A stretch of 39,780 nt of DNA, from positions 1-39,780 of IMG/VR virus record IMGVR_UViG_3300033149_001697. The stretch is one strand, 5' to 3'. Within the stretch, counting starts at the first letter, position 1. Every line of letters starts with the position of its first letter. Positions 1,561-34,290 of the stretch are shown here, in pieces. Position numbers and translations under genes: made by a program. The notes below the pieces were generated by a model that ran no database searches, had not been told where the DNA came from, and was given only the letters and a program-made list of their open reading frames with translations. Source of the DNA: a virus.

Positions 1561-1719
1561 ATGAGGCAAGGAAACAAAAAAAATTCGGCGGTTGGGACGG
1601 CGGCGGCGGCGGTGCGATTTTTCGTGCGGCGGCAACGGCGGGCTTACGGAATTAAATTTTTACCGCCGGCAAAATTAGACCTTGCCAAGATTTTGCAAAT
1701 AATCAATAATATGGTGTAA
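1561..1719 (+). CDS. Possible small basic protein (uncertain)
   Basis: A 52-codon frame from ATG 1561 to TAA 1717-1719, encoding an Ala/Arg-rich basic peptide (begins MRQGNKKNSAVGTAAAAV). There is no good ribosome-binding site; the ATG is about 10 bases from the predicted start of promoter A. The first codons (AGGCAAGGAAACAAA, 1564-1578) recur at 1763-1777 inside the next gene, which suggests a partial duplication of the gene start together with its promoter. GGC-repeat composition and the strong inverted repeats inside it make a non-coding role equally likely. I recognise no family. Confidence 0.3.
   Translation: MRQGNKKNSAVGTAAAAVRFFVRRQRRAYGIKFLPPAKLDLAKILQIINNMV
1682..1710 (+). promoter_or_regulatory. 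Early promoter B
   Basis: TTGCCA (1682-1687), a 17-base spacer, and AATAAT (1705-1710), continuing into ATAATATGGTGTA (1706-1718), the same 13-mer as in promoter A 167 bases upstream. The -35 overlaps CCTTGCC, the 3' arm of a long-range inverted repeat with GGCAAGG at 1565-1571. It should drive the early operon starting at 1748. Confidence 0.65.
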
Positions 1720-1747
1720 AATGAAAAATAAAGGGGGTCAGAAAAAA

Positions 1748-1930
1748 ATGGCAAGGGAAAAAAGGCAAGGAAACAAAATCAATTTCTTTGTGCTTCTGCA
1801 TAGGGTTGAAAGAAAATTTGGGCACAAACAATCACGCTGGTGCGATGAGGATTTTCGGCAGTGGGATAAAATTTCGGAGAAGTATGATTTGGATTATGAC
1901 ACAGGGATTGAAGAAAGGGGGTCAAAATGA
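1748..1930 (+). CDS. Hypothetical early phage protein, 60 residues
   Basis: A small basic protein starting MAREKRQGNKINFFVLLH, with a Trp/acid-rich C-terminal half (SRWCDEDFRQWDKISEKYDL). I chose ATG 1748 because GGGGGTCA (1733-1740) lies upstream, although the spacing (about 7 bases after the motif) is longer than for sister genes. ATG 1721 in the same frame would add nine Lys/Gly-rich residues and be nearly leaderless from promoter B. It overlaps the next gene by 4 bases (ATGA). Its last codons are the next gene's ribosome-binding site. No family recognised. Confidence 0.6.
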   Translation: MAREKRQGNKINFFVLLHRVERKFGHKQSRWCDEDFRQWDKISEKYDLDYDTGIEERGSK

Positions 1931-2274
1931 AAAAGTGTGAAGTATGCGGTGCGGAGCTGGAAGTAGTAGAAACAAACGTGAACGCAGACGGGACGGGCGT
2001 GTATTACGCCTGCCCGAAGTTTATGGCCGGCGACGATGAGCATACTGCGTATCTCGAGGAACACGAAGGCGAAGACGGGTATGACCACGATGTCCGCGAA
2101 GGCACGATGGAAGATGGCGTGGGATATGATATGGATGGGAAACCGGTTTTCTATCTCGACGGAGAAGAACATACTTTTTCTACGGGACATACTCACGCCA
2201 CTGAAACCGAAGAATACGAAAATGTGAACGGGGTCATCGTGCGGTTGAGCGACGGCAAAAGAATAGATTGGTAG
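1927..2274 (+). CDS. Zinc-ribbon-like acidic protein
   Basis: A 115-residue acidic protein. An N-terminal CEVCG (C4, C7) followed by a single Cys near residue 29 (YYACPKF) suggests half or all of a zinc-ribbon fold. The middle is rich in Glu, Asp and His, and the C-terminus (VNGVIVRLSDGKRIDW) looks like a small beta element. The start is fixed by GGGGGTCA at 1917-1924, three bases before ATG. Function unknown; early, probably an intracellular binding protein or host-takeover factor. Confidence 0.65.
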   Translation: MKKCEVCGAELEVVETNVNADGTGVYYACPKFMAGDDEHTAYLEEHEGEDGYDHDVREGTMEDGVGYDMDGKPVFYLDGEEHTFSTGHTHATETEEYENVNGVIVRLSDGKRIDW

Positions 2275-2312
2275 ATGCAAAGGAACGGGAGAGATTAAGA
2301 AAGGGGGTCAAA

Positions 2313-3314
2313 ATGAAGGCAAGGACAAACTGGAAGGAAATGGTAGGCGTGCTGAAAGCGGGAGTGCCGGTTGAGGAAGTGAAAGCGGCATACGGTGTCA
2401 GGCAGTGTGATGTTAACTGGTGGAGCAAGAAGTATAAAGACGCTCCGGCGCTGTCAAGGGTTGCGGCGGCGACGATTGTTGAGCGCAAGAAAAAAGCACA
2501 GGCAGGGCAGACAGAAGTTATCGTAGTGGACAGCGGAAAGAAAACAGAAGTAAAAAAAAGCGGGAACACTTTCAAATCATTAACAAAAAGTCAGCGGAAA
2601 GTTTTTGATTTTCTCGGAAAGGTCGGCAATGAAACGGCGGTGCTGGTTAAAGGTGAAGCTGGACTGGGCAAGACGGAGCTTGTCAGGCAGTTTGCGGAAA
2701 GCAAAGGCAAGCGCATTGTAAGCTGGAATATGAACGGAACGGTTGATGTGGCTGACTTGCTGGGGCATTATATTTCACAGAACGGCTCTACAAGCTGGGT
2801 GTATGGCGTAGTTTCGCACGCTGTAAAGAACGGGCTGTGGCTGTGCTTGGATGAGATAAATGCGCCGGAAGCGAATGTGCTGTTTTCAATTCACGGGCTT
2901 CTGGATGACAGGAAAACGGTAATTCTGTCAGACCATAATGAGGTAATAGAGGCGCACCCGGATTTTAGATTTTTCGCTACCTGCAATGAAGGTTATCTGG
3001 GAACACGGGAGTTTAACAAGGCGTTTCTGTCAAGGTTTAATGCGGTAGTTAAACTTGACTATCCTGAAATGGAGGAAGAGGTAAAAATCATTTCAGACAT
3101 TCAGCCAGACGAAAGTAAAACGAAAATCATTGCGCAGATGTTGGCGGAAATGCGCAAAGCAAATTTAGCAATGCCGCTGGGTATAAGAGAGAGCAAAAGC
3201 TGGGCGTATCTTTCGCTGAAAATGGAACTGAAAGAGGCGTTCGAATTTGCTATTGAGAATAAAGCGGGAGATATTGATTTATCGGAATACAAGGGTTTGT
3301 ATTTCAAAAAATAA
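2313..3314 (+). CDS. MoxR/CobS-type AAA+ ATPase
   Basis: A 333-residue protein. An N-terminal helix-turn-helix-like segment (about 10-40, LKAGVPVEEVKAAYGV) and a Lys-rich linker precede a MoxR-type AAA+ core: Walker A GEAGLGKT at 114-121, Walker B LWLCLDEIN near 175-183, sensor-1 FFATCN near 220-225, and an SRF arginine-finger segment near 240-242. MoxR ATPases act with VWA-domain partners to remodel or insert metals into other proteins, and the VWA partner is the next gene, 10 bases downstream. Phage copies are often labelled CobS because of similarity to cobaltochelatase, but no cobalamin gene is present. The start is fixed by GGGGGTCA at 2303-2310. Confidence 0.88.
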   Translation: MKARTNWKEMVGVLKAGVPVEEVKAAYGVRQCDVNWWSKKYKDAPALSRVAAATIVERKKKAQAGQTEVIVVDSGKKTEVKKSGNTFKSLTKSQRKVFDFLGKVGNETAVLVKGEAGLGKTELVRQFAESKGKRIVSWNMNGTVDVADLLGHYISQNGSTSWVYGVVSHAVKNGLWLCLDEINAPEANVLFSIHGLLDDRKTVILSDHNEVIEAHPDFRFFATCNEGYLGTREFNKAFLSRFNAVVKLDYPEMEEEVKIISDIQPDESKTKIIAQMLAEMRKANLAMPLGIRESKSWAYLSLKMELKEAFEFAIENKAGDIDLSEYKGLYFKK

Positions 3315-3324
3315 GGGGGTCAAA

Positions 3325-5124
3325 ATGCAGTTGATGTCGTCAAATGATTATGCTACTTTACGAGGGCAGATAGAGAAAATGCTTATTCAGCATAATTTGA
3401 GAAAATGTGTTGATATGGGAAACATCGTCGGGGAAGGTGATTTGAAGGTGCTGGTTGCGCCGGTATCGACATCGTTTGCGGATTTGAAAAAACGGAAAAT
3501 AGTCATAGGCAGTGACGCTGTTGGAGTTTCACTGAAAAAAATGGTTGCTCATATACTTCACGAAGCAGGTCATATACGCTATACAAAACTGACTATTGAA
3601 AGGGCGATGAAAATCATAAAAGACACTGTGCAACCGAAAACAAATTTGAATTGGATACAGGACTGGGCAAATGTTATCGAGGACGCTCGGATAGAATACA
3701 AATTGTCAAAGCGATATCCGAACGGGCGGGCGCTTCTTAACATAAGAGATTTGTCACAAGCGGATAAGGCGTCGGAAAAAGTGCCTAAATCGGTCAGGGA
3801 TTTGGTTAAGTTTTTCAAATTGTTGACGGCTGTGCCGACAAAAGACGGGGCGGAAGTGCTGGCGGAAGTGCCGGAGGCATATAAAAAGGTATATAAGAAA
3901 AACATAAATCAATTTATTAAATCATTGGAGCACACACAGTGGAAGCACATAAAAGAGACAGCCGGCTTCTATAAAGACATTATGGACGTCTTTGATAAGC
4001 AGGTTAAAAAAGCAGAGGAACAGGCACAGAAGGAAGCGGAACAGAAAAAACAGGAAGCAGAAAAATCAGCAGAAAACAAAGAGGATGAAGAAAGCAAAGA
4101 GAATGGACAGGACACTTCTGACGGCAAAGATAAAGACAGTGGAAAGAAAAAAGAAAAAGAAGGTAATGAAAACAAAGGTGACAGGGAGCGGCAGGAAAGT
4201 CAAGAGCAGAAGGAAAGCACGGCAGAAACAGAAGAAGGCGCAAGCGAGAAAGGCGAGGAGCAAGAAGATAATGAAGACGGGAAAGGGTCAGGCGCAAGCA
4301 ATGGGAAAGGCGAAGATGACAGTAAAGATATAGAGTTTGCTCATCCTGTCGGGCGGCTGTCGTCAAAAGTAAGGGAAGTTATAAAACAGTCAGAAAAAAT
4401 TACGGATGAAGTGCTGGAAACACTTAACAGGCAGGAAGCGGAAATCAAGCGGCAGGAAACGCAGATAAAATCAGTAATTCAGCAGTTATTACAGGAATTG
4501 CAACCGGACGTGAAAAGAAACAGAGAGAGAGGAAAGATAGACACGAATAAGCTGTGGAAAGCGGGTATAAAAAAAGATGACTTCTTTAAGGCGGCTGGAA
4601 GGGAATTCCCGGAAACAGATATAATCGTAATGTCTGATATTAGCGGTTCAACACGGAATGGTAATATATTTTCGGTAATATCAAAAGCGACACAGAGCTT
4701 GATGGAAGCATTTGACAAGTTTGAAAAAATAAAATCGATGGCGCTGTTTTTCAACGGCAATAGTTATGTCGGAAAAACATTCAGACAGAAGGGCGTGAAA
4801 TTTCCTGTCGGGGCGTCGGGCGGAACTAATTTTGATAGAGTTATTTTTCACGCAGATAAAATGCTGAAAAAAGAAGGTAGAGGCAAAAAAGAATTTATGC
4901 TTATGATAACAGATGGACTGGATAATCTTTCAAAAGCAATAAAAAAACTTGCTGAACAGCATAATCTCTATGCAATAATTATTTCGTCATCTGCGACGGC
5001 ATCGACGGCATATATTAAACGTATAGCTGAAGAAAACTTCGGAAAGAACTTCTGTGTAATAGGCGGCATATCGGAACTGGGCGGCGCTATTGCAGCGGCG
5101 TTCAAAACTTTTATCAGGGGGTAA
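3325..5124 (+). CDS. CobT-like protein: HExxH metallopeptidase-like plus VWA domain
   Basis: A 599-residue protein. Residues 71-130 hold a gluzincin-like zinc site, H79-E80-A-G-H83 with NVIEDARIE near 117-124 as likely third ligand. Residues about 220-345 form a long, low-complexity Glu/Lys/Gln/Ser linker. The C-terminal VWA domain has the MIDAS motif D438-I-S-G-S, a GGTNFD loop and ITDGLDN. The layout matches phage and bacterial CobT/DUF2201-like partners of MoxR ATPases, whose natural substrate in phages is unknown. Its pairing with the ATPase just upstream implies a two-component remodelling or processing machine. The start is fixed by GGGGGTCA at 3315-3322; the longer in-frame extension back to 3247 overlaps the ATPase gene and is rejected. 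Confidence 0.85.
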   Translation: MQLMSSNDYATLRGQIEKMLIQHNLRKCVDMGNIVGEGDLKVLVAPVSTSFADLKKRKIVIGSDAVGVSLKKMVAHILHEAGHIRYTKLTIERAMKIIKDTVQPKTNLNWIQDWANVIEDARIEYKLSKRYPNGRALLNIRDLSQADKASEKVPKSVRDLVKFFKLLTAVPTKDGAEVLAEVPEAYKKVYKKNINQFIKSLEHTQWKHIKETAGFYKDIMDVFDKQVKKAEEQAQKEAEQKKQEAEKSAENKEDEESKENGQDTSDGKDKDSGKKKEKEGNENKGDRERQESQEQKESTAETEEGASEKGEEQEDNEDGKGSGASNGKGEDDSKDIEFAHPVGRLSSKVREVIKQSEKITDEVLETLNRQEAEIKRQETQIKSVIQQLLQELQPDVKRNRERGKIDTNKLWKAGIKKDDFFKAAGREFPETDIIVMSDISGSTRNGNIFSVISKATQSLMEAFDKFEKIKSMALFFNGNSYVGKTFRQKGVKFPVGASGGTNFDRVIFHADKMLKKEGRGKKEFMLMITDGLDNLSKAIKKLAEQHNLYAIIISSSATASTAYIKRIAEENFGKNFCVIGGISELGGAIAAAFKTFIRG

Positions 5125-5126
5125 TT

Positions 5127-5270
5127 ATGGCAAAATGTATGGAATGCGGGCGGGAAGTAAAAAAACTTATTGCGGTCAATCCGCAATGGTTAGTTTGTAG
5201 GAAGTGCTACAAAAAATATGTGGCACAGAACGGGAAAGGGGGTCACAGTGAGGATAAAAGAAAAAAATAA
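5127..5270 (+). CDS. 47-residue four-cysteine zinc-finger protein
   Basis: A short gene with a clear treble-clef or ribbon pattern: C4-x2-C7 (MAKCMECGRE) and C24-x2-C27 (VCRKCYKKY). ATG 5127 follows CAGGGGG at 5115-5121. Its 3' end overlaps the start of the next gene (GTG 5248) by 23 bases, and the next gene's GGGGGTCA signal lies within it. It is likely a nucleic-acid or protein-binding zinc peptide. Confidence 0.7.
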   Translation: MAKCMECGREVKKLIAVNPQWLVCRKCYKKYVAQNGKGGHSEDKRKK

Positions 5271-5751
5271 AGCGGCGGCATTATCTTTTGATGATTTAGT
5301 AGAACTGAATAAGCACAGATATAGATACACAATATCACAGAAAGATTTTAAGCTGGTCAGCGGACTGATTGCAAGAATAGAAAATCGGGACTGGGAAAAA
5401 GTTGCGGCTGGCGATGTCATCAGTTTATCGGCGCTGAAATCAGACAGGACTTATGAAAGGGGTCACATAGAAAAAATTGATTGCGGCAGTTGCGGGCACG
5501 GATGGGAAAGCGGAACAGCTTACTGTTGCACAGAGCCGTATGTGCCGTTTGTGCATAAGACGAACGGCGGAGTATATTTCAATACTTCGGGCGGCTACTG
5601 GGTTCTGCTGGACAGAAGCAAATTTTTGCGCATAGACATTCAGCGGAAACTGTTTACGACATTCGAGGGACGGTTGCCGTGTGCGGACGGGGCAGTTTAT
5701 TTCTGGGCTAATGTGGTGCGCTGGCAATATGCGGGTAAGGAAATTTATTAA
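5248..5751 (+). CDS. Conserved hypothetical early protein (weakly DUF4121-like)
   Basis: A 167-residue protein starting at GTG 5248, chosen because GGGGGTCA at 5238-5245 precedes it. It contains an internal CGSCG (CxxC) and several aromatic-rich strands, including NTSGGYW and a C-terminal VYFWANVVRWQY. The SGG-W pattern and the FWANVVRWQY end weakly recall DUF4121 proteins of mobile elements, which lack a known function. This link is from memory and unsure. It lies between a zinc peptide and a Cas4-like nuclease in the early operon. Confidence 0.5.
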   Translation: MRIKEKNKAAALSFDDLVELNKHRYRYTISQKDFKLVSGLIARIENRDWEKVAAGDVISLSALKSDRTYERGHIEKIDCGSCGHGWESGTAYCCTEPYVPFVHKTNGGVYFNTSGGYWVLLDRSKFLRIDIQRKLFTTFEGRLPCADGAVYFWANVVRWQYAGKEIY

Positions 5752-5762
5752 AGGGGGTCAGG

Positions 5763-6470
5763 ATGTTTAATTTATCAGCAGTAAAAGCGGCGGAAAATTC
5801 AAAGCGGTATGTGACGAATAAAATTCACGTTTCGGAATTGGCTTCTCACGATTGCGACAGGTATCTGTGGCTGACGCATAGCGGGCAGTATAGCTGGATA
5901 CCAGATGAGAATATACTGTGGGCGTTTCTGGTCGGCAAGGGTATTCACAGCGAACTTGAAAAAGAATGTTTGGCGTGGGCAGAGCAGAACGGCGCTATCG
6001 GGTTTTCGGAAGTAAAAGTCGAGACGGATAATATGATAGGCAGTATTGATTTGGTGATAGTGTATGAAAGAAAAAAAACTATCGATATTATTGACATCAA
6101 ATCAACGGGAGCGGAAGGTTTTTTTCTACTCCCGTCGGAGAGTATGATAAATCAGGTCAATATCTATGTCGGGGCACTGCTGGCGGGGGGGTTTAAGGCG
6201 TTGAAAAACATAAAGGTGACGAAGGACTGGAATATAGGAGGGCAGATTTGGAAGGTTAACAAGACAGGAAGACCGAGATATTTTGATGTGGAGCAGGACG
6301 CACATCCTATACAGATAGATTTGGACATATACAGAAACGCAGAAAAACGGGCGGAAAAAATTTCGTCGGCATTGAAGGGGGGTTATGAAATCAAAAAAGA
6401 AGACGGGCAGAAATGTGCGGGATGTCCGGCACGGCTGGTTTGCGAAGGGTTGAAAAGTATTGAAATTTGA
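5763..6470 (+). CDS. Cas4/RecB-like PD-(D/E)XK nuclease with Fe-S cysteines
   Basis: A 235-residue protein. Visible motifs are a first Cys C31 in DCDRYLW, H62 in GKGIHSELEK, D96 in GSIDLV, D111-I-K113-S in the core strand, a QVNIY helix near 130, and a C-terminal cluster C218-x2-C221-x5-C227. One N-terminal plus three C-terminal cysteines are the signature of Cas4/AddB-type Fe-S nucleases. Such phage enzymes process DNA ends for recombination and are not evidence of CRISPR. The gene after next is a probable recombination protein. The start follows GGGGGTCA (5753-5760). Confidence 0.85.
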   Translation: MFNLSAVKAAENSKRYVTNKIHVSELASHDCDRYLWLTHSGQYSWIPDENILWAFLVGKGIHSELEKECLAWAEQNGAIGFSEVKVETDNMIGSIDLVIVYERKKTIDIIDIKSTGAEGFFLLPSESMINQVNIYVGALLAGGFKALKNIKVTKDWNIGGQIWKVNKTGRPRYFDVEQDAHPIQIDLDIYRNAEKRAEKISSALKGGYEIKKEDGQKCAGCPARLVCEGLKSIEI

Positions 6471-6481
6471 AGGGGGGTCAA

Positions 6482-6697
6482 ATGGCAAAGGCAAGGAAAT
6501 TTTTCAGTAAAAGAAAAGGGCTTCACATCGAAGCGGAAGGTTGTGTCATAAATATCTATGAGAAAATTTATGACAGGCAGGGCAGGGAAGTCACGGTGGT
6601 GCAGATAATCCCGGACAAATACAGCGGTGAGAGAAAGTGGAAGCTTATAGGCACAAATGTTGTGCGTGTAGTGCGGCTGAAAACAGTAAAATGTTAA
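6482..6697 (+). CDS. Hypothetical early protein, 71 residues
   Basis: A basic, beta-rich small protein (MAKARKFFSKRKGLHIEA...). ATG 6482 directly follows GGGGGTCA at 6473-6480, so the longer frame from 6467 is rejected. It lies between the Cas4-like nuclease and the probable recombination protein, and may assist DNA binding given its charge. No family recognised. Confidence 0.65.
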   Translation: MAKARKFFSKRKGLHIEAEGCVINIYEKIYDRQGREVTVVQIIPDKYSGERKWKLIGTNVVRVVRLKTVKC

Positions 6698-6711
6698 GGG
6701 GGTGAAAAAAA

Positions 6712-7593
6712 ATGGCAAGGAAAAAGAATGACGGTGCGGGCACTGGTGAGATTATGAGGAGAACAAGCAAGAATGCAGAGCTGACAGCCTTCAAAAGATT
6801 GCTTGATTTGCAGGGGCAGAAGCGTATCCTGCTGGAAAACTACATTATAAAACATCTGAAACAGGGCGTTGACTTCGGCAGGATAGAGGGAACAACGAAA
6901 TCCGGCAAGACCTTCAAGAGCGAAAAGCCGAGTTTGTTCAAAGCAGGAGCGGAGAAGGTGCTTAACAGAACGAATGTTCAGGCGGTGCTTAAAAAAGATG
7001 TGGACACTTGGGAGATGACAGGAAACAAGCCGGGCGTCGTCTGCTATATTTGCGAACTGTTTACGCAGGACGGAATAAAAATAGGCGAAGGACGGGGTGC
7101 GGCGGATATCCGGGAAATCCGTTTCGGCGGCTCGTTCAATAACTGCATAAAGATAGCGGAGAAGCGGGCAAGGGTTGACGCTGTGCTATCTACTTATGCT
7201 CTGTCGGACAGGTTCACACAGGACTTAAATGATGAAGATGAGCGGCAGGTCTCAAAAGCAGGCAAATTATCATCGCAGAATAGCACAGGCGGCAATAATC
7301 GGGCAAAGGTCGGGGACTTGGGACGGCAGAGAGCAAATGCTCAAAAAGAGGCAAATACGGGCGCAAAACGGCAGATATTCAGGATAGGCGGCAATGATAT
7401 GACACGGGCGCAGTTTGAGGAACACTTGCGAAAGCTGGCGGCGGATGTGAACTTTGAGATAAAAGAAGCTGTGCAGACGATTTTCGGCAAAAATAGAATG
7501 GAAGACCTTTCGGGAAATCAAATGCTGGCGCTTTTTAACACAATTCAAAACAGGATACGGAAACAGGCGGCGGAAAGAGAGAATAATTTATAA
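6712..7593 (+). CDS. Conserved phage protein, probable recombination or ssDNA-annealing factor
   Basis: A 293-residue protein. The N-terminal 170 residues match a phage family I know by pattern: a short helix, then DFGRIEGT, PSLFKAGAEKV, a strand pair ending GEGRGAA, and the helix NNCIKIAEKRARVDAVLS followed by SDRFTQDLND. These proteins usually sit next to Cas4-like nucleases and replication initiators and are suspected recombination mediators, though the biochemical role is unproven. The C-terminal 120 residues are a polar linker and a helical tail (ARAQFEEHLRKLAADVNFEI region). The ribosome-binding site is GGGGGTGA (6700-6707), a one-base variant of the early motif. Confidence 0.6.
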   Translation: MARKKNDGAGTGEIMRRTSKNAELTAFKRLLDLQGQKRILLENYIIKHLKQGVDFGRIEGTTKSGKTFKSEKPSLFKAGAEKVLNRTNVQAVLKKDVDTWEMTGNKPGVVCYICELFTQDGIKIGEGRGAADIREIRFGGSFNNCIKIAEKRARVDAVLSTYALSDRFTQDLNDEDERQVSKAGKLSSQNSTGGNNRAKVGDLGRQRANAQKEANTGAKRQIFRIGGNDMTRAQFEEHLRKLAADVNFEIKEAVQTIFGKNRMEDLSGNQMLALFNTIQNRIRKQAAERENNL

Positions 7594-7606
7594 GGGGGTA
7601 TTTATT

Positions 7607-7963
7607 ATGGAAGCGCTGAAAGAAAAAATCAAACGGCTGATTAAATTGTTAAAAAAGAAGAAAGAAATTGCAGATGAGGAAAAACAGGTAAGAGCTGACA
7701 TTCTGGGACTTATGGAAAAAAACAAACTGGGGTCGGTGAAAGTCAAAGATTTGGGTGTAGAAGCGAAAATGATAATTTCAGAGCGCTTTGAATATGATTT
7801 GCGGGCTATCATAGAGACGCTGGAACTTGACTTCATTGTGGATAAAGGCATTGTAAAATGTGATACACGGGTCTGCAATAGAGAACTGAAAGGACACCCG
7901 GACATTGATAGTTTGAGAGTGAAAGCGGCGGAAAGAAAAACGGTGCGGTTGGTGAAGATGTAA
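7607..7963 (+). CDS. Coiled-coil early protein, 118 residues
   Basis: The first 45 residues are a very Lys/Glu-rich helix (EKIKRLIKLLKKKKEIADEE). The rest has alternating hydrophobics typical of a small alpha/beta domain, with two cysteines near residues 85-91. AAGGGGG at 7592-7598 serves as ribosome-binding site. The pattern loosely recalls siphovirus Gp157-like proteins, but not strongly enough to call it. It is followed by the tandem hairpins at 7965-8021. Confidence 0.55.
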   Translation: MEALKEKIKRLIKLLKKKKEIADEEKQVRADILGLMEKNKLGSVKVKDLGVEAKMIISERFEYDLRAIIETLELDFIVDKGIVKCDTRVCNRELKGHPDIDSLRVKAAERKTVRLVKM

Positions 7964-7964
7964 T

Positions 7965-7988
7965 CCTGCGGGCTGACCCCCACGCAGG
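7965..7988 (+). promoter_or_regulatory. Hairpin displaying complement of the early ribosome-binding site
   Basis: CCTGCG (7965-7970) pairs with CGCAGG (7983-7988). The 12-base loop contains TGACCCCC (7974-7981), the exact reverse complement of GGGGGTCA found before nine early genes. In RNA the loop would be free to pair with those sites in cis or trans. The next gene (8042) uses a different ribosome-binding site. Function is inferred only. Confidence 0.5.
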
Positions 7989-7991
7989 TGA

Positions 7992-8021
7992 GCGGGGCAG
8001 GGGAGAAATCCCTTGCCCCGC
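7992..8021 (+). promoter_or_regulatory. 13-bp hairpin with GAAA tetraloop
   Basis: GCGGGGCA plus GGGGA pair with TCCCT plus TGCCCCGC (one G-U pair) around a GAAA loop at 8005-8008. A GNRA loop on a long GC stem is very stable. No U-tract follows, so it is not a classic terminator. It could protect or end an RNA that includes the preceding hairpin, or control access to the GAGGGAGGGG site just before ATG 8042. Confidence 0.6.
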
Positions 8022-8041
8022 AAGAGGGAGGGGTAAATAAA

Positions 8042-8260
8042 ATGGAAAAACAGCGGGATACAGTTTTGAGAATAGTGAAAAGATTAAGTCCGGTGCGGAC
8101 GGAAGTAATAAAGATACTCGCAATGCGGCGGGGTGTAAGCTGTGCGGACAGATACTTGCGCTGGTTGCAGGACGACGGAGAAGTCACGGGATACACGAAA
8201 TCGGGAGACAGAACGAAAACTTGGTATTATATCGGGCGGCGTATGGGGGGTCAGCAATGA
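8042..8260 (+). CDS. Small winged-helix-like protein
   Basis: A 72-residue basic protein. The helix order (TVLRIVKRL, TEVIKILAMRRG, CADRYLRWLQDDGEV) followed by a beta wing (VTGYTKSGDRTKTWYYIG) looks like a winged-helix DNA-binding domain. ATG 8042 follows GAGGGAGGGG (8024-8033); the frame extends to 7988 but that part would be encoded by the hairpins. It overlaps the initiator-like gene by 4 bases, so it may regulate or assist replication. Confidence 0.6.
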   Translation: MEKQRDTVLRIVKRLSPVRTEVIKILAMRRGVSCADRYLRWLQDDGEVTGYTKSGDRTKTWYYIGRRMGGQQ

Positions 8261-8964
8261 AAAGATTTACGGACTGTGATAAGTGGCGTAAAGAATGGTG
8301 GCAGAATTTATCACCAAGCGGAAAACTATTGTGGTATTATATCACGGAGAACTGTAATGTGGCGGGCGTCTGGGAAGTCAATTTTCGGCTGGCAGAGTTT
8401 CAGATAAACGCAAAAATAAACAAAGAGGAAATTCAGAGGCAGTTTCAAAAACAGATTATTGTGCTGGCGGGCGGGACGAAATGGTTTATTAGAAACTTCG
8501 TCAAGTTTCAATATGGAAAAGATATTGATAATCTCAACGAAAATGTAGGCGTGGATAGAGCGATAAAAAGAATTGTCGAGAAGGAACTTGCGGGGGTGGA
8601 TTTGAATAATCCGGCGCAGGGGTTATTGCTCGAAATAATGCCGGATGGACAGAAGAAGCGGCGCAAGAAACTTACTGGCGATGTCGTGGCAATGGCAAAA
8701 GAAATAACAGAACTTAATAATGAGATGTTTATAACGACGTGGCAGGACTGGATTGTTTACAGGCGGGAACTGGGAAAAAAGATAACTCCGTCAACGGCAC
8801 GGAGGCAGTTAAAGAAATTGGCAAGCTGGGGCATAGACAATGCTGTCAAGAGTATTCAGCGGTCGATAGAGAAGGGCTGGACGGGGCTATTCGAAATCAA
8901 AGATGTTTGTGGCAGAAAAAAGTTGTCGGATTTATTAGATAAGGGGGTTGACGATGAAATCTAA
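8257..8964 (+). CDS. Replisome-organiser-like replication initiator
   Basis: A 235-residue protein. The N-terminal half (FTDCDKWRKEWW, SPSGKLLWYYITENCNVAGVWE, WFIRNFVKFQYG) matches the winged-helix N-terminal domain of phage replisome organisers and DnaD-like initiators. The C-terminal 80 residues (WQDWIVYRRELGKK ... KSIQRSIEKGWTGLFEI) match the helical domain often found with it. Such proteins bind the phage origin and recruit the host helicase loader. As no helicase, primase or polymerase is encoded, host DnaB and Pol III would be used. ATG 8257 follows GGGGGTCA at 8246-8253. Confidence 0.75.
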   Translation: MKRFTDCDKWRKEWWQNLSPSGKLLWYYITENCNVAGVWEVNFRLAEFQINAKINKEEIQRQFQKQIIVLAGGTKWFIRNFVKFQYGKDIDNLNENVGVDRAIKRIVEKELAGVDLNNPAQGLLLEIMPDGQKKRRKKLTGDVVAMAKEITELNNEMFITTWQDWIVYRRELGKKITPSTARRQLKKLASWGIDNAVKSIQRSIEKGWTGLFEIKDVCGRKKLSDLLDKGVDDEI

Positions 8965-9403
8965 AACGATTGACAGGGGATTTGATTTGTTGGAAAAAAA
9001 TTTCAGGACAAGCTATCCGGCATTGTTGCGGTTAAAAGTATGGGAACATATAAAAAAGAGTTTACCGAAAACTTTTACGGACAAAATGTTTGAGGATATT
9101 GTGGATGGATTTTTGAAAATGGAATACCCGCCGAAATATGCGGATTTTATGACGGCGCTGAAAGAGAAGGTGGGCAACGGGGTGACGGCGGAATATAATG
9201 AAATAATGTGTTCAAACTGTGGGAGAAGTTTTACGCCGGAAAATGAATATCAGGCAGAGATAGAATGGTGTGGAGCGTGTATAAAATGGAGAGAAACGCC
9301 GGAAGGCAAGGAAATAATGCGGCGGCGGGTGGCAGAGCTTAAAATAAAATTGCGGGAAAGTTTGAAAAATTTTTCTATGCGCCGGCAAGGGGGGGCAGAA
9401 TGA
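8954..9403 (+). CDS. Putative replication accessory protein with zinc ribbon
   Basis: A 149-residue protein. The N-terminal about 75 residues form a helical domain ending YPPKYADFMTALKEKV, reminiscent of helicase-loader/G39P-type proteins that sit next to phage initiators. The second half holds C-x2-C (MCSNCGRSF) and C-x2-C (EWCGACIKW), a zinc ribbon. It overlaps the initiator by 11 bases. ATG 8954 is chosen because AAGGGGG lies six bases upstream; TTG 8948 would begin inside that signal. The loader role is inferred from position and faint similarity. Confidence 0.55.
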   Translation: MKSKTIDRGFDLLEKNFRTSYPALLRLKVWEHIKKSLPKTFTDKMFEDIVDGFLKMEYPPKYADFMTALKEKVGNGVTAEYNEIMCSNCGRSFTPENEYQAEIEWCGACIKWRETPEGKEIMRRRVAELKIKLRESLKNFSMRRQGGAE

Positions 9404-9669
9404 AATTTGCGATTGAAGCTTTTGGTATTCGGGATGGAGAAACATTCGGAATTCAATTCGCTGGGACTGGCAAAGAACTTGGACAGGCAGTTGAAGAATT
9501 ACAGGGTGAAATTGACGCTTGGGATAGGTGTGCACGATGTGGAGCAATTTTACATTCAGAGGATTTTCACAGAGAAAGTCAGATAGCTGATACATCGGTA
9601 ATGGCGGCAGTAGAGACATTGGCGCTGGGATATACTTGCCCGCATTGCGGATTTTCGGAGGGTGCATAG
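9400..9669 (+). CDS. Two-CxxC zinc-ribbon protein
   Basis: An 89-residue protein with CARCG near residue 45 and CPHCG near residue 82, spaced as in a zinc ribbon with an inserted helix. It begins with a short beta-type segment (KFAIEAFGIRDGETFGIQ). It overlaps the preceding gene by 4 bases, so is likely co-translated with the replication accessory protein. Function unknown. Confidence 0.6.
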   Translation: MKFAIEAFGIRDGETFGIQFAGTGKELGQAVEELQGEIDAWDRCARCGAILHSEDFHRESQIADTSVMAAVETLALGYTCPHCGFSEGA

Positions 9670-9729
9670 AATGAACGGCGGGCGTGCAGGTGAATAGTAA
9701 GAGTGCATATTGCGATAAGGAGGGCAAAG

Positions 9730-9870
9730 ATGGACAAAAAATTAAGCAATGATTTGGGTTGTATCATTACAGATTTTGCTGTTGAAATTGGATTTAAGGC
9801 AAAGAAAAAAAAATTCAATAAAGTTCACGAAAAAACTGTGAAAAGAATTTTGAAGGTAGTGAAAAAATGA
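9730..9870 (+). CDS. Hypothetical small basic protein, 46 residues
   Basis: A short Lys-rich frame (MDKKLSNDLGCIITDFAVEI...) preceded by AAGGAGGG at 9718-9725, a good ribosome-binding site. It ends in ATGA overlapping the start of the damaged frame at 9867. No family recognised. Confidence 0.5.
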   Translation: MDKKLSNDLGCIITDFAVEIGFKAKKKKFNKVHEKTVKRILKVVKK

Positions 9871-10065
9871 AAACCAGAAAGTAGATTTGGGAATTGGTTC
9901 GTGGAGCAATTTGGGAAGCGTCCGACTGCGACAACAGTTGATACGCTACGGCGTGAGTTTGTTATGGCTGTAAAAGCTGAACGAATGGAACGCCAAATTC
10001 CCAAGATGAGGAGGGGGAGTGAAATTTTCTGCAACACTTTCATTCGGACATTCTGCTGGCGTTAA
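9867..10065 (+). pseudogene. Frameshifted small phage gene
   Basis: ATG 9867 opens a frame that stops at 9882-9884 after five codons. The +1 frame from 9871 onward encodes a convincing protein (PESRFGNWFVEQFGKRP and so on) through to TAA 10063-10065. Removing one A from the AAAA run after the ATG would give MKPESRFGNWFVEQFGKRP, a start typical of small phage proteins. Either a homopolymer sequencing error, a true loss-of-function indel, or programmed slippage explains it. The 3' part past about 10019 overlaps the next frame and may not be the native end. Confidence 0.5.
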
Positions 10066-10210
10066 ACTTTCTTTTAGGAAAAAAAGCGTTAGATTATGTG
10101 TATGGAATGTGGCTATATGCTTTATGATGTTCGATATTGAAGAAATAATTGTCTATCTAAAATCGGAAAACACACGGCTGAAAAAGCGACTGACGAAGGA
10201 GGGGGAGTGA
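10019..10210 (+). CDS. Uncertain small protein, possibly also frameshifted
   Basis: GTG 10019 follows AGGAGG (10009-10014) with four-base spacing, a strong signal. The given frame makes a 63-residue protein with a coiled-coil C-terminus (FDIEEIIVYLKSENTRLKKR). Its first half looks less natural than the neighbouring frame, which reads FLQHFHSDILLALNFLLGKK... and would be in phase if the TTTT run near 10023 were one base shorter. So this may be two small genes, one with an indel. Confidence 0.35.
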   Translation: MKFSATLSFGHSAGVKLSFRKKSVRLCVWNVAICFMMFDIEEIIVYLKSENTRLKKRLTKEGE

Positions 10211-10410
10211 AGAAGGTAAAACTTAAAGAAGGTATGAAGCTAATAGAACCGATGGTCAAACCGTGGAAAATTGGAGAGCTAATGGGCTTTGTATTGGCTG
10301 GCAATAACCGACCATATGCCGTTGTCTTAACAGAACACGGCGAATTTGAATTGTGTCCGCTTTATTCGATAATTGAAGCGAAGCCCGCAAGCGGGAAGGA
10401 GGAAAAATGA
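10207..10410 (+). CDS. Hypothetical protein, 67 residues
   Basis: Starts at GTG 10207 inside the previous stop, preceded by AAGGAGGGGGA. It is predicted to be a small beta-barrel-like protein (KLIEPMVKPWKIGELMGFVL, PYAVVLTEHGEFELCPLY), resembling short SH3-like phage proteins in layout only. It overlaps the next gene by 4 bases. Function unknown. Confidence 0.6.
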   Translation: MKKVKLKEGMKLIEPMVKPWKIGELMGFVLAGNNRPYAVVLTEHGEFELCPLYSIIEAKPASGKEEK

Positions 10411-10538
10411 CATTACCGATTTTAACGATTGTTGTATTCTGTATCGCCGTCTTTATCGGCGGAATTATTCTTACTATGAAAATTTTCGGTGACGCTCCGG
10501 CGCGGGATGGCGACGAGCCGCCTATCGGGATTGGTTGA
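10407..10538 (+). CDS. 43-residue single-span membrane protein
   Basis: ATG 10407 follows AAGGAGG at 10397-10403. Residues about 3-24 (LPILTIVVFCIAVFIGGIIL) are one hydrophobic span, followed by a short acidic/Pro tail. It is a typical small early phage inner-membrane peptide, possibly for host takeover or superinfection exclusion, which is inference. Confidence 0.65.
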   Translation: MTLPILTIVVFCIAVFIGGIILTMKIFGDAPARDGDEPPIGIG

Positions 10539-10549
10539 AGGGGGTCAGG

Positions 10550-10762
10550 ATGAAAAAATTTGAGGAAATTACGAAGCTGGAAGCGGTAGTGTGTAAAATA
10601 ATCGCATTATGGGATAAAGATTATACAGATAAACAAGATTTGCAGGAACTTTTGAGAGCTATTATTCAGGCGAAGGACTCCGAGGCGTATATGCACATTG
10701 CGCCGGTTGAATGGCGGTTATATGGTAAGTTGGTTGAGAAGTGGTTGGGGGATGAAAAGTGA
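10550..10762 (+). CDS. Hypothetical helical protein, 70 residues
   Basis: Mostly helical (EEITKLEAVVCKIIALW, KQDLQELLRAIIQAK). ATG 10550 follows GGGGGTCA at 10540-10547, the last of the nine copies of this signal. It overlaps the next gene (GTG 10759) by 4 bases. No family recognised. Confidence 0.65.
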   Translation: MKKFEEITKLEAVVCKIIALWDKDYTDKQDLQELLRAIIQAKDSEAYMHIAPVEWRLYGKLVEKWLGDEK

Positions 10763-11342: not shown

Positions 11343-11362
11343 AAAAGTGGGGGTAAGCAAAA

Positions 11363-11689
11363 ATGAGTGATGTTGGTTATCAGTTGTTATCTGCGAGCAA
11401 GGAAATTAAAAGGTTGAATGGTATAATCAGAGAAGCGGCGGCGGAGATTAAGGAACTCAAAGCCGCTAACTCACTGCTGAAAGGTGCAATAAAAGCTGAC
11501 GATGAGCGTTTATTACAGGCGACGAAACGCATAAACAGCCCTCCGTGGGGTTGTGATACGGCGGAACATTTAGCAGATGAGATTTTGGAATTGAGAGCTG
11601 AGAACGCACGGTTGAAAAAAACAATATCCGAACTGTATGAAAGATTGCAGGAAATAAATCCCGATACTGTGGCGAAGGAGGGGAAGTGA
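11363..11689 (+). CDS. Coiled-coil protein, 108 residues
   Basis: Two heptad-like stretches, residues about 10-50 (KEIKRLNGIIREAAAEIKEL) and 75-100 (LRAENARLKKTISELYERL), flank a short non-helical segment with a WGC. GTGGGGGT precedes the start by about seven bases. It is likely an oligomeric scaffold or regulator; function unknown. Confidence 0.6.
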   Translation: MSDVGYQLLSASKEIKRLNGIIREAAAEIKELKAANSLLKGAIKADDERLLQATKRINSPPWGCDTAEHLADEILELRAENARLKKTISELYERLQEINPDTVAKEGK

Positions 11690-18060: not shown

Positions 18061-18063
18061 CTG

Positions 18064-18087
18064 GATTAAGATTAAGATTAAGATTAA
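18064..18087. repeat. Tandem GATTAA hexamers, copy 2
   Basis: Four perfect GATTAA units between the operator-like palindrome and the -35 of the portal promoter (14 bases further). Copy 1 is at 1451-1470 upstream of the early promoters. Confidence 0.8.
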
Positions 18088-18100
18088 GTAAAATTAACCC

Positions 18101-22461: not shown

Positions 22462-22509
22462 AAAACCGAGTTTGCTAAATTCTGGGCGTTAAGCACGGAA
22501 GCGAAGTTT

Positions 22510-22543
22510 CGGGCAGGGTGTCTCTATGAGACAATTCTGCCCG
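22510..22543 (+). terminator. Strong hairpin after the capsid gene
   Basis: CGGGCAG (22510-22516) pairs with CTGCCCG (22537-22543), and TGTCTC (22519-22524) with GAGACA (22528-22533) around a TAT loop. No U-run follows, so it may be a partial terminator or a 3' stabiliser that sets the high capsid mRNA level against downstream genes. Confidence 0.5.
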
Positions 22544-22571
22544 GACTTCGGGCAAAGGCGGGGATTTTATT

Positions 22572-29704: not shown

Positions 29705-30525
29705 TGGACGACGATAAAATAAAAGAGCTTTTCAGAAGCGGGAAAGGAAACCCGAAAACGAAAATGGAGCTGGACTTAATAAATGTGGCGGCGGCGGCAA
29801 ACGGCGGCAAAGTTTTTATTGACGGCGTGGAGCAGGCGAATTCGCCGATAAATGACGGGCGGCGCAGTCATATTGATAAGCTGGGGGTGGCAAAGAGTTA
29901 TTCTATAAATTTGGCGCATTCTTTTTTCGATGATTTTCTGGGGACTGCTGTTGATACGAATAACTGGGGTGTTTCTACATACGGCGGGACTTACAGCGTA
30001 AGCGATAGTTATGTAAAAATGCACATACCGGCAATTTCAACAGGATATCACGTGCAATTAAGGCGGACGGCAATGCTTAATTCGGCGGCTTTGAGCAATT
30101 ATAAATATGCTATGAACTTTAAGTTTACAGCGTTTCCTACTTCTGGGCTTTGTGACAGTAGTTGTGGAGTTGGAGCTTCACACAATGACCCCGGAAGTGC
30201 TAATCCGTGGCCACGAGAATGGTTATTGGTAAAACCTAAATCAGGAACTTTAACTTATGATTATTATATCGCTTCCGGCGTTGGGGTAAGTTATTCTATG
30301 AGTTTGGGGACTGTAAATGTTGGAGATGTTTTGGACTTGACATTCTGGCATTATATTGACAAGGCGGTAATCATTGCGAAATTAAACGGGGTAGAAGTTG
30401 TAAACACGCAAAAGGACACTTATGAAGTTTCAACGGATATGACTGGTAATATTCTTACAGGCAGTCGTAGTTCAGAAGACGAAGCGGCTGAAAGTTGGGT
30501 TGACTGGTATAAAGAGGGAATATGA
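29704..30525 (+). CDS. Concanavalin-like beta-sandwich tail-tip protein
   Basis: A 273-residue protein. After a 75-residue N-terminus the sequence SFFDDFLGTAVDTNNWGVSTYGG opens a concanavalin/LamG-like beta sandwich (VKMHIPAISTGYHVQLRR, YKYAMNFKFTAFP, DYYIASGVGVSYSMSLGTVN, DLTFWHYIDKAVIIAKLNGV). Such domains bind glycans, so it is a candidate receptor or carbohydrate-binding module. It has no signal peptide, unlike the downstream fibres. Confidence 0.6.
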   Translation: MDDDKIKELFRSGKGNPKTKMELDLINVAAAANGGKVFIDGVEQANSPINDGRRSHIDKLGVAKSYSINLAHSFFDDFLGTAVDTNNWGVSTYGGTYSVSDSYVKMHIPAISTGYHVQLRRTAMLNSAALSNYKYAMNFKFTAFPTSGLCDSSCGVGASHNDPGSANPWPREWLLVKPKSGTLTYDYYIASGVGVSYSMSLGTVNVGDVLDLTFWHYIDKAVIIAKLNGVEVVNTQKDTYEVSTDMTGNILTGSRSSEDEAAESWVDWYKEGI

Positions 30526-33140
30526 GTGACATCGTAATAAAATTCACAGAGAAGAAAAAAATCAATCGGATAAATTTATTCGTATATCCGCTGGCAACGG
30601 AAACAAATGTCGAAGCGGACAGCGGGGCGCAGGCGGCTGACTATAAAATTTCTTATGCGACAGACAGCGCATTGACGGTCTGGGTTGACTGGGCGGGCTT
30701 GGAAGACAGAAGCGAGGAAATAGGGCAAGCACCGACGACAATTTCGGATGGTCTTACAAGTGGAAATACGAATACATATAATTCGTTTCACGATACGAAT
30801 GGCGTTGACGCATACGGCGTAAAAGTTATTGCTATCGGCGAAGGCACGGTCAAATTCACAGAGATAGAAGTTTGGAGAACGTTGGCGCTGGACACATTCG
30901 ATAGAATAAATATTGATGAGGAAAAAGACCTTGTAAACAATAAGTTTCTGGCAAGTTTGGGGGCGGGGACTTATGTTGCGAAGGCAGAGGATTTTTACCC
31001 GGGACGGGGCGAATTTGTGGATGTAAAAGCAAAAGATGTGAATAAAATGAAAGCACGGGTATATGGCGGCTATTCGCAGAAGGGCGTTGAATACTGGACT
31101 ATAATTCGGCATTTTGCGCTGTATGACTGGACTATATTTCTGAAATCAAAAAAAATAGAATTTCGGATGAAGGACAGGGTGAAGGAATTAAAAGAGAAGG
31201 AAGTTTTTCTGGCGGCGGAAGTGCTGGAAGGCAAGACACGGGAGTGGCTGATAGAGTGGATGGGGCTGAAATCGAATTTACATTCGGCGGAAATGTCTTT
31301 ATTTCAGAGTAATGATACGGTTAATTATTTCTATCCGGTTAATCAGACGGTGTGGGATGAAATGACGCTGGTGGCGCAAGGGCTTGATGACATTGATTTA
31401 TTTATAGACAGGTTCGGAAAGCTAAAATGGAATGTGTATTTAGAAAATATACCGCACTTTTGGACGGTCGATGATTATTTAGAGTTTCAGGAATGCACAC
31501 TGAATAATTTGATATTGACTACGGAAGGTGACAAGGCGGTGGTTGAGCCGGGCGGGGCAAGCGGGCAGGTTCAGGTTTTCTCTGATAGCGGTTTATATGA
31601 AATATCGTTAAATGAATTAAGCGGCATTACGCAGGATACTTGGTTTTTGAAGGCGACGGATGAAATAACTATCGACGCTGGAAAAGACACGGCAATTTTT
31701 AATTATAATGTGCAGGGAGTAGTCAGCGACGATGGGTTGGCACAGTGGCAGGGGAGAATAAAAATTGAAATCTGGTTGGGAAGCAGTTTGATAGATAGCT
31801 GGACAAGTGACGGCGATACTTCAAACCCGACGGCATACAGAGAGCATTCAAAAAATATAGGTATAAGTCCGGGAACTTATATGGTAAAAAGATATCTGTT
31901 GGGAAAATATGTGCAGATAAGCACATACGAAAACGGACAGACAATCTGGCATACGTATCAGTTGGGATGTGCTACAAATGAGCTGATAATCAATGAGAGC
32001 TTACGGACATTTGAGGGCGGGTCGATAGAAAGCAATGTGCAGGATTTGCTGATAACGCCGGATAACTGGGGAGCGCTGACAATGAATTTTACGGGGTCGC
32101 AGTCAACGGTCTCGACGAATACAAGCGCAGACGGCACAAACTGGGAAGGGTGGAAGGAAGTTATTGACGGCGAAATAAAATCAAAGTTGGATAGGTTTAT
32201 GAAATGGAAAGTGGAAATACCGGCGACGGATTTATGGGTGGAGTTTCCGAAATTATATTCGGTGGAAGTTTCATATTTTTCAGGGAGCGGCACACAGCGT
32301 TGGTCAAAGATAGCATACGAATTCAGCGACGATGATTTGGATGAATTACCGATGAGTTTCAATGATGAAAGAGAAGGGCAGAGACAGCAGTATGATAAGG
32401 TTGAGGTAGCGATAGAGCCGTTTATTTTGGTTGCGGTGACGGATATATGGCAGGGTCAGGTTGATTGGCAGACGGTTAAAAACAAGAACTACACTTTTAA
32501 CCCGGAATTTGATAATCCTGTAAAAATAGACGGCGATTATAAACTGTATATCAATTCAGTTGAGTTTTTGGAAGGCGAAACAACGCACGATAATTTGACA
32601 GTGAGCTTCACGAAACATCCGGTGAAGCCGATTATAATGATAAAGCAGAGCGGGGACACACAGGTGACAATAACAGGTTTCAAGCTGACAGGAAAGCAAT
32701 ACATAAGAGGAAACAGAACGATAGCTTCGGCGGGCACGGGGCTGAAAGTTTTGAGAATTGAAAACAATTACATAAATTCGTCAAGTTTTGCACAGCAGAT
32801 AGCTTCGAATAAATATACAGAAATGAAAGATGTTATCGGGTCTATGGACAGAGACACGGGGATTGATTGGCTTCCGGTGCTGAATTTTTTAGATATAATT
32901 CAGATAAAAAACACAACGCTGGGGACAACGAAAATGTATCGTATTTATAAGATAAGTCACGAATATAATGTTCTCTCAAAAGAGGCGATGGTCTCAACGA
33001 AAATAAGGTGCAAGGAAATTGACAGGTCTATATTTTATGACCCGTTATACTGGGATGATGTGAGAAATGAAGAACGGATATACTGGGGCGCTGATGTTAA
33101 TGGAAATCCGAGATATAGAGGCGGAAGGATATTCGGTTAA
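30522..33140 (+). CDS. Tail hub/tail-associated protein with discoidin-like N-terminus
   Basis: An 872-residue protein, the second largest in the genome. Residues 1-125 (KKINRINLFVYPLATETN, ADYKISYATDS, DAYGVKVIAIGEGTVKFTEIEVW) resemble an F5/8-type-C discoidin sandwich. The middle holds several beta-sandwich segments including GALTMNFTGSQSTVSTNTSADGTNWEGW. The final about 180 residues (NNYINSSSFAQQIASNKYTEM, NFLDIIQIKN, KMYRIYKISHEYNVLSKEAMVS) match the conserved C-terminus of baseplate hub proteins. It follows the overlap order of a tail tip. No peptidoglycan hydrolase motif is visible. Confidence 0.65.
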   Translation: MSDIVIKFTEKKKINRINLFVYPLATETNVEADSGAQAADYKISYATDSALTVWVDWAGLEDRSEEIGQAPTTISDGLTSGNTNTYNSFHDTNGVDAYGVKVIAIGEGTVKFTEIEVWRTLALDTFDRINIDEEKDLVNNKFLASLGAGTYVAKAEDFYPGRGEFVDVKAKDVNKMKARVYGGYSQKGVEYWTIIRHFALYDWTIFLKSKKIEFRMKDRVKELKEKEVFLAAEVLEGKTREWLIEWMGLKSNLHSAEMSLFQSNDTVNYFYPVNQTVWDEMTLVAQGLDDIDLFIDRFGKLKWNVYLENIPHFWTVDDYLEFQECTLNNLILTTEGDKAVVEPGGASGQVQVFSDSGLYEISLNELSGITQDTWFLKATDEITIDAGKDTAIFNYNVQGVVSDDGLAQWQGRIKIEIWLGSSLIDSWTSDGDTSNPTAYREHSKNIGISPGTYMVKRYLLGKYVQISTYENGQTIWHTYQLGCATNELIINESLRTFEGGSIESNVQDLLITPDNWGALTMNFTGSQSTVSTNTSADGTNWEGWKEVIDGEIKSKLDRFMKWKVEIPATDLWVEFPKLYSVEVSYFSGSGTQRWSKIAYEFSDDDLDELPMSFNDEREGQRQQYDKVEVAIEPFILVAVTDIWQGQVDWQTVKNKNYTFNPEFDNPVKIDGDYKLYINSVEFLEGETTHDNLTVSFTKHPVKPIIMIKQSGDTQVTITGFKLTGKQYIRGNRTIASAGTGLKVLRIENNYINSSSFAQQIASNKYTEMKDVIGSMDRDTGIDWLPVLNFLDIIQIKNTTLGTTKMYRIYKISHEYNVLSKEAMVSTKIRCKEIDRSIFYDPLYWDDVRNEERIYWGADVNGNPRYRGGRIFG

Positions 33141-33429: not shown

Positions 33430-34203
33430 ATGAAAAAGATTTTATTTGTTTTGGCACTGGCGGCAGGAAGCGCTTTTGGTTCGGGCTGGTTTTCGAATGT
33501 GCAGTATTCTACAATTACAAAGCAGTATGAAAAGCATATCAGCGGCAGTTATTTTTTCGGCGGTGATACTACTACTTGGAAAGTCAAAATATCGTCAACG
33601 GGTGAAGTCACGGCGGTTAATTTTTCAGGTGTCGTTTCTACGGCTACGTGGGCGTTGGACAGCGATTTGCTTGACGGCAGGAACTACGACGCTTTTGTTG
33701 ATACATTTACATCACAAAGTATTAAAGGTTATAAATCTTTCTATTCTGAAACTGAATTTAATAATTTAACATTGACAAGCGGAGAATTGAATATGAATGA
33801 ACTTAACATTGTTGACGCATATTTGGATAATGCTTTTCTTGCTACTAATTTTAATGCTAATAATAAAGGGATAACAAACATTGACTGGGCAAACTCCGAC
33901 GATGGCTCTGGTTCTGGTCTTGACGCTGATTTGCTTGACGGCAAAAATTACGACGCTTTTGCGTCAACATATAACGCTGTTTTTTCCGGCAATATTGCTA
34001 TTGGTAAAATAAATCCAGTAGAAAAATTACAAGTATCATCGTCAACGTTGAGTGGATATAGTTTAGGATTTGCGGGGGCTTACAATGACTTGCCGACAAG
34101 CGGACACGAAGAAGGAACTATGATTTATCAAGTTTCAGACCATACATTATATGTAGCTACGATAACGGTGACAAATGTTGGGTGCTGGAAGGCAGTTTGG
34201 TAA
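33430..34203 (+). CDS. Tail-fibre-like protein with Sec signal peptide
   Basis: A 257-residue protein from ATG 33430. MKKILFVLALAAGSAFG is a classical signal peptide with an A-F-G cleavage site near 17. The mature part has two LLDGxNYDAF repeats (near residues 79-88 and 167-176), a fibre-like STATW linker and a C-terminal tail-knob-like end (DLPTSGHEEGTMIYQVSDHTLYV). Phage fibres normally assemble in the cytoplasm, so the signal peptide is odd. A 33-base DNA repeat is shared with the next fibre gene. The upstream frame to 33361 has no ribosome-binding site. Confidence 0.65.
   Translation: MKKILFVLALAAGSAFGSGWFSNVQYSTITKQYEKHISGSYFFGGDTTTWKVKISSTGEVTAVNFSGVVSTATWALDSDLLDGRNYDAFVDTFTSQSIKGYKSFYSETEFNNLTLTSGELNMNELNIVDAYLDNAFLATNFNANNKGITNIDWANSDDGSGSGLDADLLDGKNYDAFASTYNAVFSGNIAIGKINPVEKLQVSSSTLSGYSLGFAGAYNDLPTSGHEEGTMIYQVSDHTLYVATITVTNVGCWKAVW
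33664..33696. repeat. LLDGxNYDAF-coding repeat, copy 1
   Basis: First of four related 33-base units encoding DLLDGxNYDAF. The others are at 33928, 34900 and 36460. This copy differs from copies 2 and 4 at a few bases in the GGCAGGAACTACGAC stretch. Confidence 0.7.
33928..33960. repeat. 33-base fibre repeat, copy 2
   Basis: Identical over all 33 bases to 36460-36492 in the next gene. Sharing between two genes makes it a probable site for fibre-domain exchange by homologous recombination. Confidence 0.85.
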
Positions 34204-34211
34204 AAAGAGGG

Positions 34212-34240: not shown

Positions 34241-34290
34241 GAAATACGGGGCAATTCTGCCGGCGGACAAATAAAGTTTGGAGGGATATG

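Follow-up and report, generated by a model that had tools for sequence, protein, structure and literature searches.

The viral record IMGVR_UViG_3300033149_001697 (positions 1 to 39,780; this whole stretch of 39,780 bases is called the window below) contains nine genes that carry the same octamer, GGGGGTCA, in their ribosome-binding sites (RBSs), and a single hairpin among these genes whose loop contains the exact complement of that octamer. We consider it somewhat better than an even chance (a probability of roughly 0.55) that this is a phage-encoded antisense hairpin that pairs with the tagged RBSs and represses their genes jointly, while late genes with GGAGG sites are spared. Translational repression by loop-to-RBS pairing is the most likely mechanism. 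The tag, its complement, the position of the complement in a loop and the pairing energies are all computed, and the same plan occurs in an unrelated virus (G001) and in the cluster K mycobacteriophages, with covariation for cluster K only.

The nine copies of the tag on the + strand lie exactly where a preliminary description of this DNA had placed them, and there is no further copy on that strand. They are found at 1733-1740 (before the open reading frame (ORF) 1748-1930, 60 amino acids, no family), 1917-1924 (ORF 1927-2274, 115 amino acids, with a weak zinc-ribbon match below the cut-off), 2303-2310 (ORF 2313-3314, an AAA ATPase, AAA_5), 3315-3322 (ORF 3325-5124, phrog_1576, function unknown), 5238-5245 (ORF 5248-5751, DUF4121), 5753-5760 (ORF 5763-6470, a Cas4-like PD-(D/E)XK nuclease), 6473-6480 (ORF 6482-6697, 71 amino acids, no family), 8246-8253 (ORF 8257-8964, a replication-initiation O-like protein) and 10540-10547 (ORF 10550-10762, 70 amino acids, no family). 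The tags lie 7, 2, 2, 2, 2 (a GTG start), 2, 1, 3 and 2 nucleotides (nt) ahead of their start codons, within the 1-7 nt originally given, and most tagged starts read AAGGGGGTCA-RR-ATG. The late sites of the GGAGGT type before 21078, 24339 and 26737 are also as described. What did not hold is the statement that no other copy exists, since motif enumeration on both strands gives a minus-strand copy at 7974-7981. The two strands together have 10 matches where 0.82 are expected, and none of 100 shuffles reaches 10. The proposal that the motif is a class-defining translation signal and not a chance repeat is borne out by its + strand copies, which are confined to starts in the 1.7-10.5 kb block and precede non-homologous proteins. 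The nine proteins are mutually unrelated (one chance match, E = 0.47), so that gene duplication is no explanation for the repeated tags, despite 21 nt of flank that two of the copies have in common.

Read on the sense strand, the minus-strand copy is TGACCCCC (7974-7981, +). It is the only copy there, against 0.005-0.03 expected (Markov models of order 1-3), and it falls in a 78-nt gap between ORFs 7607-7963 and 8042-8260, amid the tagged genes; the expectation is 0.0011 over all intergenic sense DNA and 0.00035 within 1700-10600. The octamer is part of the 12-nt loop, GGCTGACCCCCA, of the proposed antisense hairpin (hairpin 1; 7965-7988, +; stem CCTGCG/CGCAGG). A second hairpin (hairpin 2; 7992-8021, +) has a 13-bp stem and a 4-nt loop, with no T run behind it. 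The two-hairpin region folds better than 200 of 200 shuffles (z = -3.8), and in the centroid fold of hairpin 1 the entire loop is open. Duplexes between the loop and the nine tagged RBSs have energies of -17.5 to -24.1 kcal/mol, the best match being that at 8246-8253. Once unfolding is taken into account, net binding is -6.5 to -13.1 kcal/mol for the nine tagged starts versus 0 to -3.2 kcal/mol for four late GGAGGT starts.

In the proposed mechanism, the extended RBS shared by the nine genes would be specific to the phage, and RNA from the intergenic stretch 7965-7988 would be made, be accessible, and present the tag complement in its loop, acting either within the polycistronic RNA or after being cut out of it. 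Pairing of the loop with the RBSs of tagged mRNAs would block ribosome loading, and translation of the whole block would fall together; hairpin 2 probably serves to stabilise the RNA or to delimit it. As a good Shine-Dalgarno (SD) sequence, the tag would allow efficient translation of its genes until the hairpin RNA accumulates, and the late GGAGGT genes would escape because the loop needs GGGGGTCA. The nine tagged genes are probably early, and we infer that timing is the purpose of the arrangement, the position of the hairpin inside the tagged block pointing to delayed negative feedback there.

Alternatively, the tag might simply be a strong SD that has spread or been kept for high translation, and the hairpin an ordinary RNA-stabilising element whose loop matches by chance. 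We regard this as unlikely. The GGGGGT core is an ordinary strong SD sequence: the preliminary description had it pairing poorly with the usual anti-SD, but the computed duplexes of the nine sites with the canonical anti-SD have energies of -10.5 to -12.8 kcal/mol, about equal to those of the late GGAGG sites, and they form at the proper spacing. Starts with GGGGGT are common in other phages, where the bases that follow are varied; in virus record G095 (L507/L508, 19609-28232), for example, seven GGGGGT-type starts occur in one block, mostly without CA behind the core. The flank common to two copies fits this explanation as well, as do other viruses with tagged starts and no hairpin, and the absence of a general enrichment (both described below). 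An SD should, however, show no constraint beyond its pairing with the anti-SD, and the excess of CA after the core in the window is such a constraint, its C being unable to pair with the canonical anti-SD. Among the starts listed for the window, CA follows 9 of 14 GGGGGT cores versus 0 of 6 GGAGGT cores (Fisher p = 0.014), and 9 of 14 has P = 2.2e-5 even at 0.14, the highest background rate used. In other viral contigs that match AAAAGGGGGTNNNNATGA, CA is present at 2 of 118 sites among the matches listed, a sample that includes chance matches, and at 1 of 79 sites whose ORF is 40 codons or longer; on this count a general preference for TCA after GGGGGT was rejected. The CA is a feature of this genome; among 50 virus records picked without regard to the motif, 2 have any GGGGGTCA start at all. 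Pairing with the loop would explain why CA follows GGGGGT here, hardly elsewhere, and does not follow the GGAGGT cores. In addition, a loop match would arise by chance with a probability of about 0.001, even without taking the hairpin into account, and chance does not readily explain why G001 and, with covariation, cluster K follow the same plan.

A scan of the collection for AAAGGGGGTCARRATG returned 65 stretches in all. Virus G001 (46,439 bases), found via the tag, resembles the compared window genes only in a tail-fibre stretch. It has three tagged starts, AAGGGGGTCAAGATG, at 26.5-27.6 kb. The same strand carries, 3 kb downstream of them, a hairpin, GGCAGGGAG-TAAATGACCCCCTT-CTCCCTGCC (30473-30504), with a perfect 9-bp stem and a loop containing TGACCCCCTT. 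Read off the sequences, the loop matches AAGGGGGTCA over 10 nt, and a second hairpin follows the first, as it does in the window. The TGA of this loop serves as the stop codon of a gp32-like gene, whose gp32 match does not reach the Pfam cut-off; a scan for relatives of the encoded protein returned G001 alone. Within the loci compared, 12 of 215 TGACCCCC sites are in loops, and the G001 loop scores best of these; it is also the best-scoring among 489 RBS-complement sites. BLAST searches against phages with the hairpin regions of the window and of G001 found no match. At Rfam gathering scores there was no match in the window, and Rfam likewise gave none for the stretch L151 or for four cluster K stretches. 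Another candidate with a different motif, the loop ATTTCTCC of G024, was rejected as a third case, as the copies of that motif are scattered over the genome, most without convincing starts, and the hairpin is terminator-like and lies among opposite-strand genes. As a separate observation, part of the window's ORF 34288-37548 is 41% identical to a stretch of G001.

The cluster K mycobacteriophages carry a repeated start motif, the Start-Associated Sequence (SAS), which was described in 2011 and whose role is still "not known" in the relevant passage of a 2024 paper (PMC3203893, PMC11373665, PMC12699233). Our sample comprised 17 phages, namely Adephagia, Anaya and 15 more relatives, and forward SAS copies number 14-20 in every one of them (allowing up to 2 mismatches). 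The SAS is described as having a single reverse copy away from gene starts, like the copy at 7974-7981 in the window. In Adephagia and Anaya this copy is the loop of a strong intergenic hairpin, and each of seven phages (W01-W07) has one reverse copy, every one in a hairpin loop. The loop CTCCTATCC is the exact complement of GGATAGGAG in eight of the 17 (Adephagia, Anaya, CrimD, Murucutumbu, Yunkel11, Validus, Niklas and LilPharaoh), and in these eight the loop is constant while the stem varies. An alignment of ten phages (the eight plus Ekdilam and Bryler, with Shandong1 and six others left out) was scored on Adephagia's fold, which favours Adephagia-derived structure in the count of paired cells; the stem pairs in 98.1% of cells, six pairs are changed on both sides, and 0 of 500 shuffles is as good. 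The cluster K hairpin is therefore a conserved RNA structure. The prediction that the SAS of Ekdilam and Bryler would have changed to fit their changed loops failed, both phages having kept GGGATAGGAGCCC.

Genes 92 and 93 of Adephagia flank the hairpin (58662-58712 of the record), and late transcription is reported to begin between these same genes, the cited passage leaving unstated whether the start is before or after the hairpin (PMC11373665). An early-gene shut-off would be expected to take this form: an antisense RNA produced together with the late transcript and directed against non-structural gene starts. The same source, in the part cited, lists Adephagia gp39 as Hfq-like (DALI z 8.8). 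Gene 39 is itself SAS-tagged, with an SAS at 31328-31340 (L519, Adephagia record 31328-31742). A second, GC-rich hairpin lies just upstream of the anti-SAS hairpin (L519:33600-33660 and homologues) and is conserved even where the anti-SAS loop is missing, for example in Keshu. SirPhilip (L533) and Marshawn (L534) seem to retain the hairpin scaffold in their right-end intergenic region with other loops, a pattern that recalls variable specificity loops. In some annotations, a small ORF is called across the cluster K hairpin region.

It is possible, though we would put the odds at a little less than even, that several unrelated phages have arrived at one plan, in which a block of early genes has tagged RBSs and is shut off by one antisense loop that the genome encodes a single time. 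For cluster K this would supply the missing function of the SAS: the loop RNA would be carried in the 5' region of the late transcript, perhaps with help from gp39. Changed loops on a kept scaffold would represent changed or lost specificity. If this is true, two unexplained patterns, the start motif of the window and the SAS of cluster K, become one simple, testable hypothesis, and the arrangement would be a compact early-to-late switch acting after transcription, as well as a natural model for one-to-many translational control. A plain sequence rule (a repeated extended RBS plus one complementary loop) would also predict other phages of this kind.

Several results weigh against repression by the loop, both in the window and as a wider plan. 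In the minimum-free-energy (MFE) fold, two of the loop's five Cs are weakly paired with GG, and the hairpins have no convincing promoter or T-run terminator that would mark a free small RNA. Two untagged GGGGGT starts, 11363 (-11.2 kcal/mol net) and 6712 (-6.6 kcal/mol), are roughly on a par with the weaker tagged starts in their binding to the loop; the first, in which GGGGGT (11349-11354, +) is followed by AA before ORF 11363-11689, may be a further loop target. No syntenic relative of the window was found by terminase and AAA-ATPase scans of viral contigs or by tblastn of five queries against phages, and two scans of genome contigs for a host gave nothing. The G001 region has an alternative fold in which the next gene's RBS is paired with the 3' arm of the hairpin and is thereby hidden. 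A hairpin with a complementary loop is absent from G002 (four clustered tagged starts on one strand and one on the other), G050 (three tagged starts) and G024 (two), as well as from further contigs with tagged starts. For cluster K, nine of the 17 phages have no exactly matching loop although all keep the SAS: the Ekdilam loop matches it with a one-base bulge, those of Bryler and Shandong1 match weakly, and no complementary loop was found within the last 2.6 kb of Yuna, Keshu, TribleTrouble, SirPhilip, Marshawn and OkiRoe. Finally, in a survey of contigs for repeated SD-like octamers, RBS complements are not generally overrepresented in loops (71 of 489, versus 49 of 392 in the control), so that the case for loop-mediated repression rests on particular examples and not on a broad trend.

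The remaining explanations assign the tag or the loop to other partners. A phage or host protein might bind the tag on the mRNA, in the manner of RegA-type translational repressors, which are proteins that bind mRNA in this way, with the hairpin loop being unrelated or another kind of site. The position of the tag over the RBS and its restriction to one gene block would suit such a protein, and for the SAS the authors of PMC3203893, in the passage cited, leave both RNA and protein open as the partner. A decoy for a protein should, however, bear the tag itself, whereas the loop here and in cluster K is the complement, and no candidate RNA-binding protein was seen among the proteins scanned; we find this explanation improbable. 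More doubtful still is an action of the hairpin in cis, with the C-rich loop pairing with the RBS, GAGGGAGGGGT, of the next gene (8042-8260). That duplex would have an energy of -9.6 kcal/mol, and the refolding of the G001 region onto its next gene's RBS is a parallel, but the loop matches the nine tags over a greater length and more strongly, its TGA would have no use in cis, and the loop in G001 has its 10-nt match with AAGGGGGTCA. A variant host 16S tail complementary to GGGGGTCA, which would make the tag the host's ordinary SD, is very hard to credit, given that CA follows none of the six GGAGGT cores and that many starts outside the block have GGAGG- or AGGAG-type sites fitting the canonical anti-SD.

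Loops that face repeated or G-rich sites are known from other RNAs. The CI RNA of P4 is a phage RNA with a loop complementary to repeated sites in its own transcript; it is known to act on transcription termination and is not known to act on RBSs. Bacterial small RNAs with UCCC loops use the generic SD, whereas the targets in the window carry a dedicated extended tag. In such RNAs, too, a C-rich hairpin loop faces the G-rich SDs of several mRNAs; examples come from Staphylococcus and Listeria (PMC3861533, PMC4132741). By mechanism, the proposed hairpin appears to be nearest to the C4 antisense RNA of P1/P7, a phage RNA whose loops pair over an RBS of the same phage (PMC5320573, PMC12197685). 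The window hairpin has a loop complementary to its own phage's RBSs, but by Rfam it is not a member of the C4 family. According to the same passages (PMC5320573, PMC12197685), C4 is processed from a longer transcript and acts in immunity on the antirepressor (ant) message, whereas in the window one loop faces nine starts. The SAS of cluster K is described as an extended, asymmetric RBS that recurs in one orientation a few nt upstream of non-structural gene starts; in the window, too, a repeated extended RBS lies close to starts of non-structural genes only. The host group and the genome differ, and because the repeated start motif is AAGGGGGTCA and not the SAS consensus GGGATAGGAGCCC, the window tag works like the SAS but is not the SAS. 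Passages retrieved from the open-licence literature contained no account of an antisense hairpin directed at the SAS, or of a single phage loop that faces a large number of tagged starts.

The window has about 43% G+C, its listed genes are all on the + strand, and it has no tRNA. An exact direct terminal repeat of 114 bp (1-114 = 39667-39780) indicates that the record is probably a complete genome. It encodes, among others, a GpA-type terminase, a capsid-like protein, an AAA ATPase, a Cas4-like nuclease, a replication-initiation-like protein and a radical SAM protein. The nearest terminases have about 30% identity; in an alignment scan of viral contigs identity was at most 33% among the best 80 of 156 terminase relatives, and one of these 80 loci has a second gene in common with the window.

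Upstream of the tagged block and at its head are several possible regulatory stretches. A promoter-like site, TTGCCA-17-AATAAT (1682-1710, +), stands at the head of the block and a similar site at 1515-1543; both are consensus matches only, a class with 48 members found versus 35.6 expected. The stretches around them (1510-1550 and 1676-1725) are similar to each other and in tandem, with the pattern GACCTTGC ... ATAATATGGTGTA. Two long intergenic regions, at 1450-1475 upstream of the tagged block and at 18063-18090 upstream of the portal/late block, both have ATTAAGATTAAGATTAAG runs and a TAGGGTA-type sequence, and may form a regulatory pair. Strong folding is also computed for the intergenic regions 923-981 (MFE -28 kcal/mol) and 22462-22571 (-51 kcal/mol), the latter between the capsid gene and the next gene. 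In the tail region, ORFs 33430-34203 and 34288-37548 contain repeated units of 47 to 78 nt (33658-36522).

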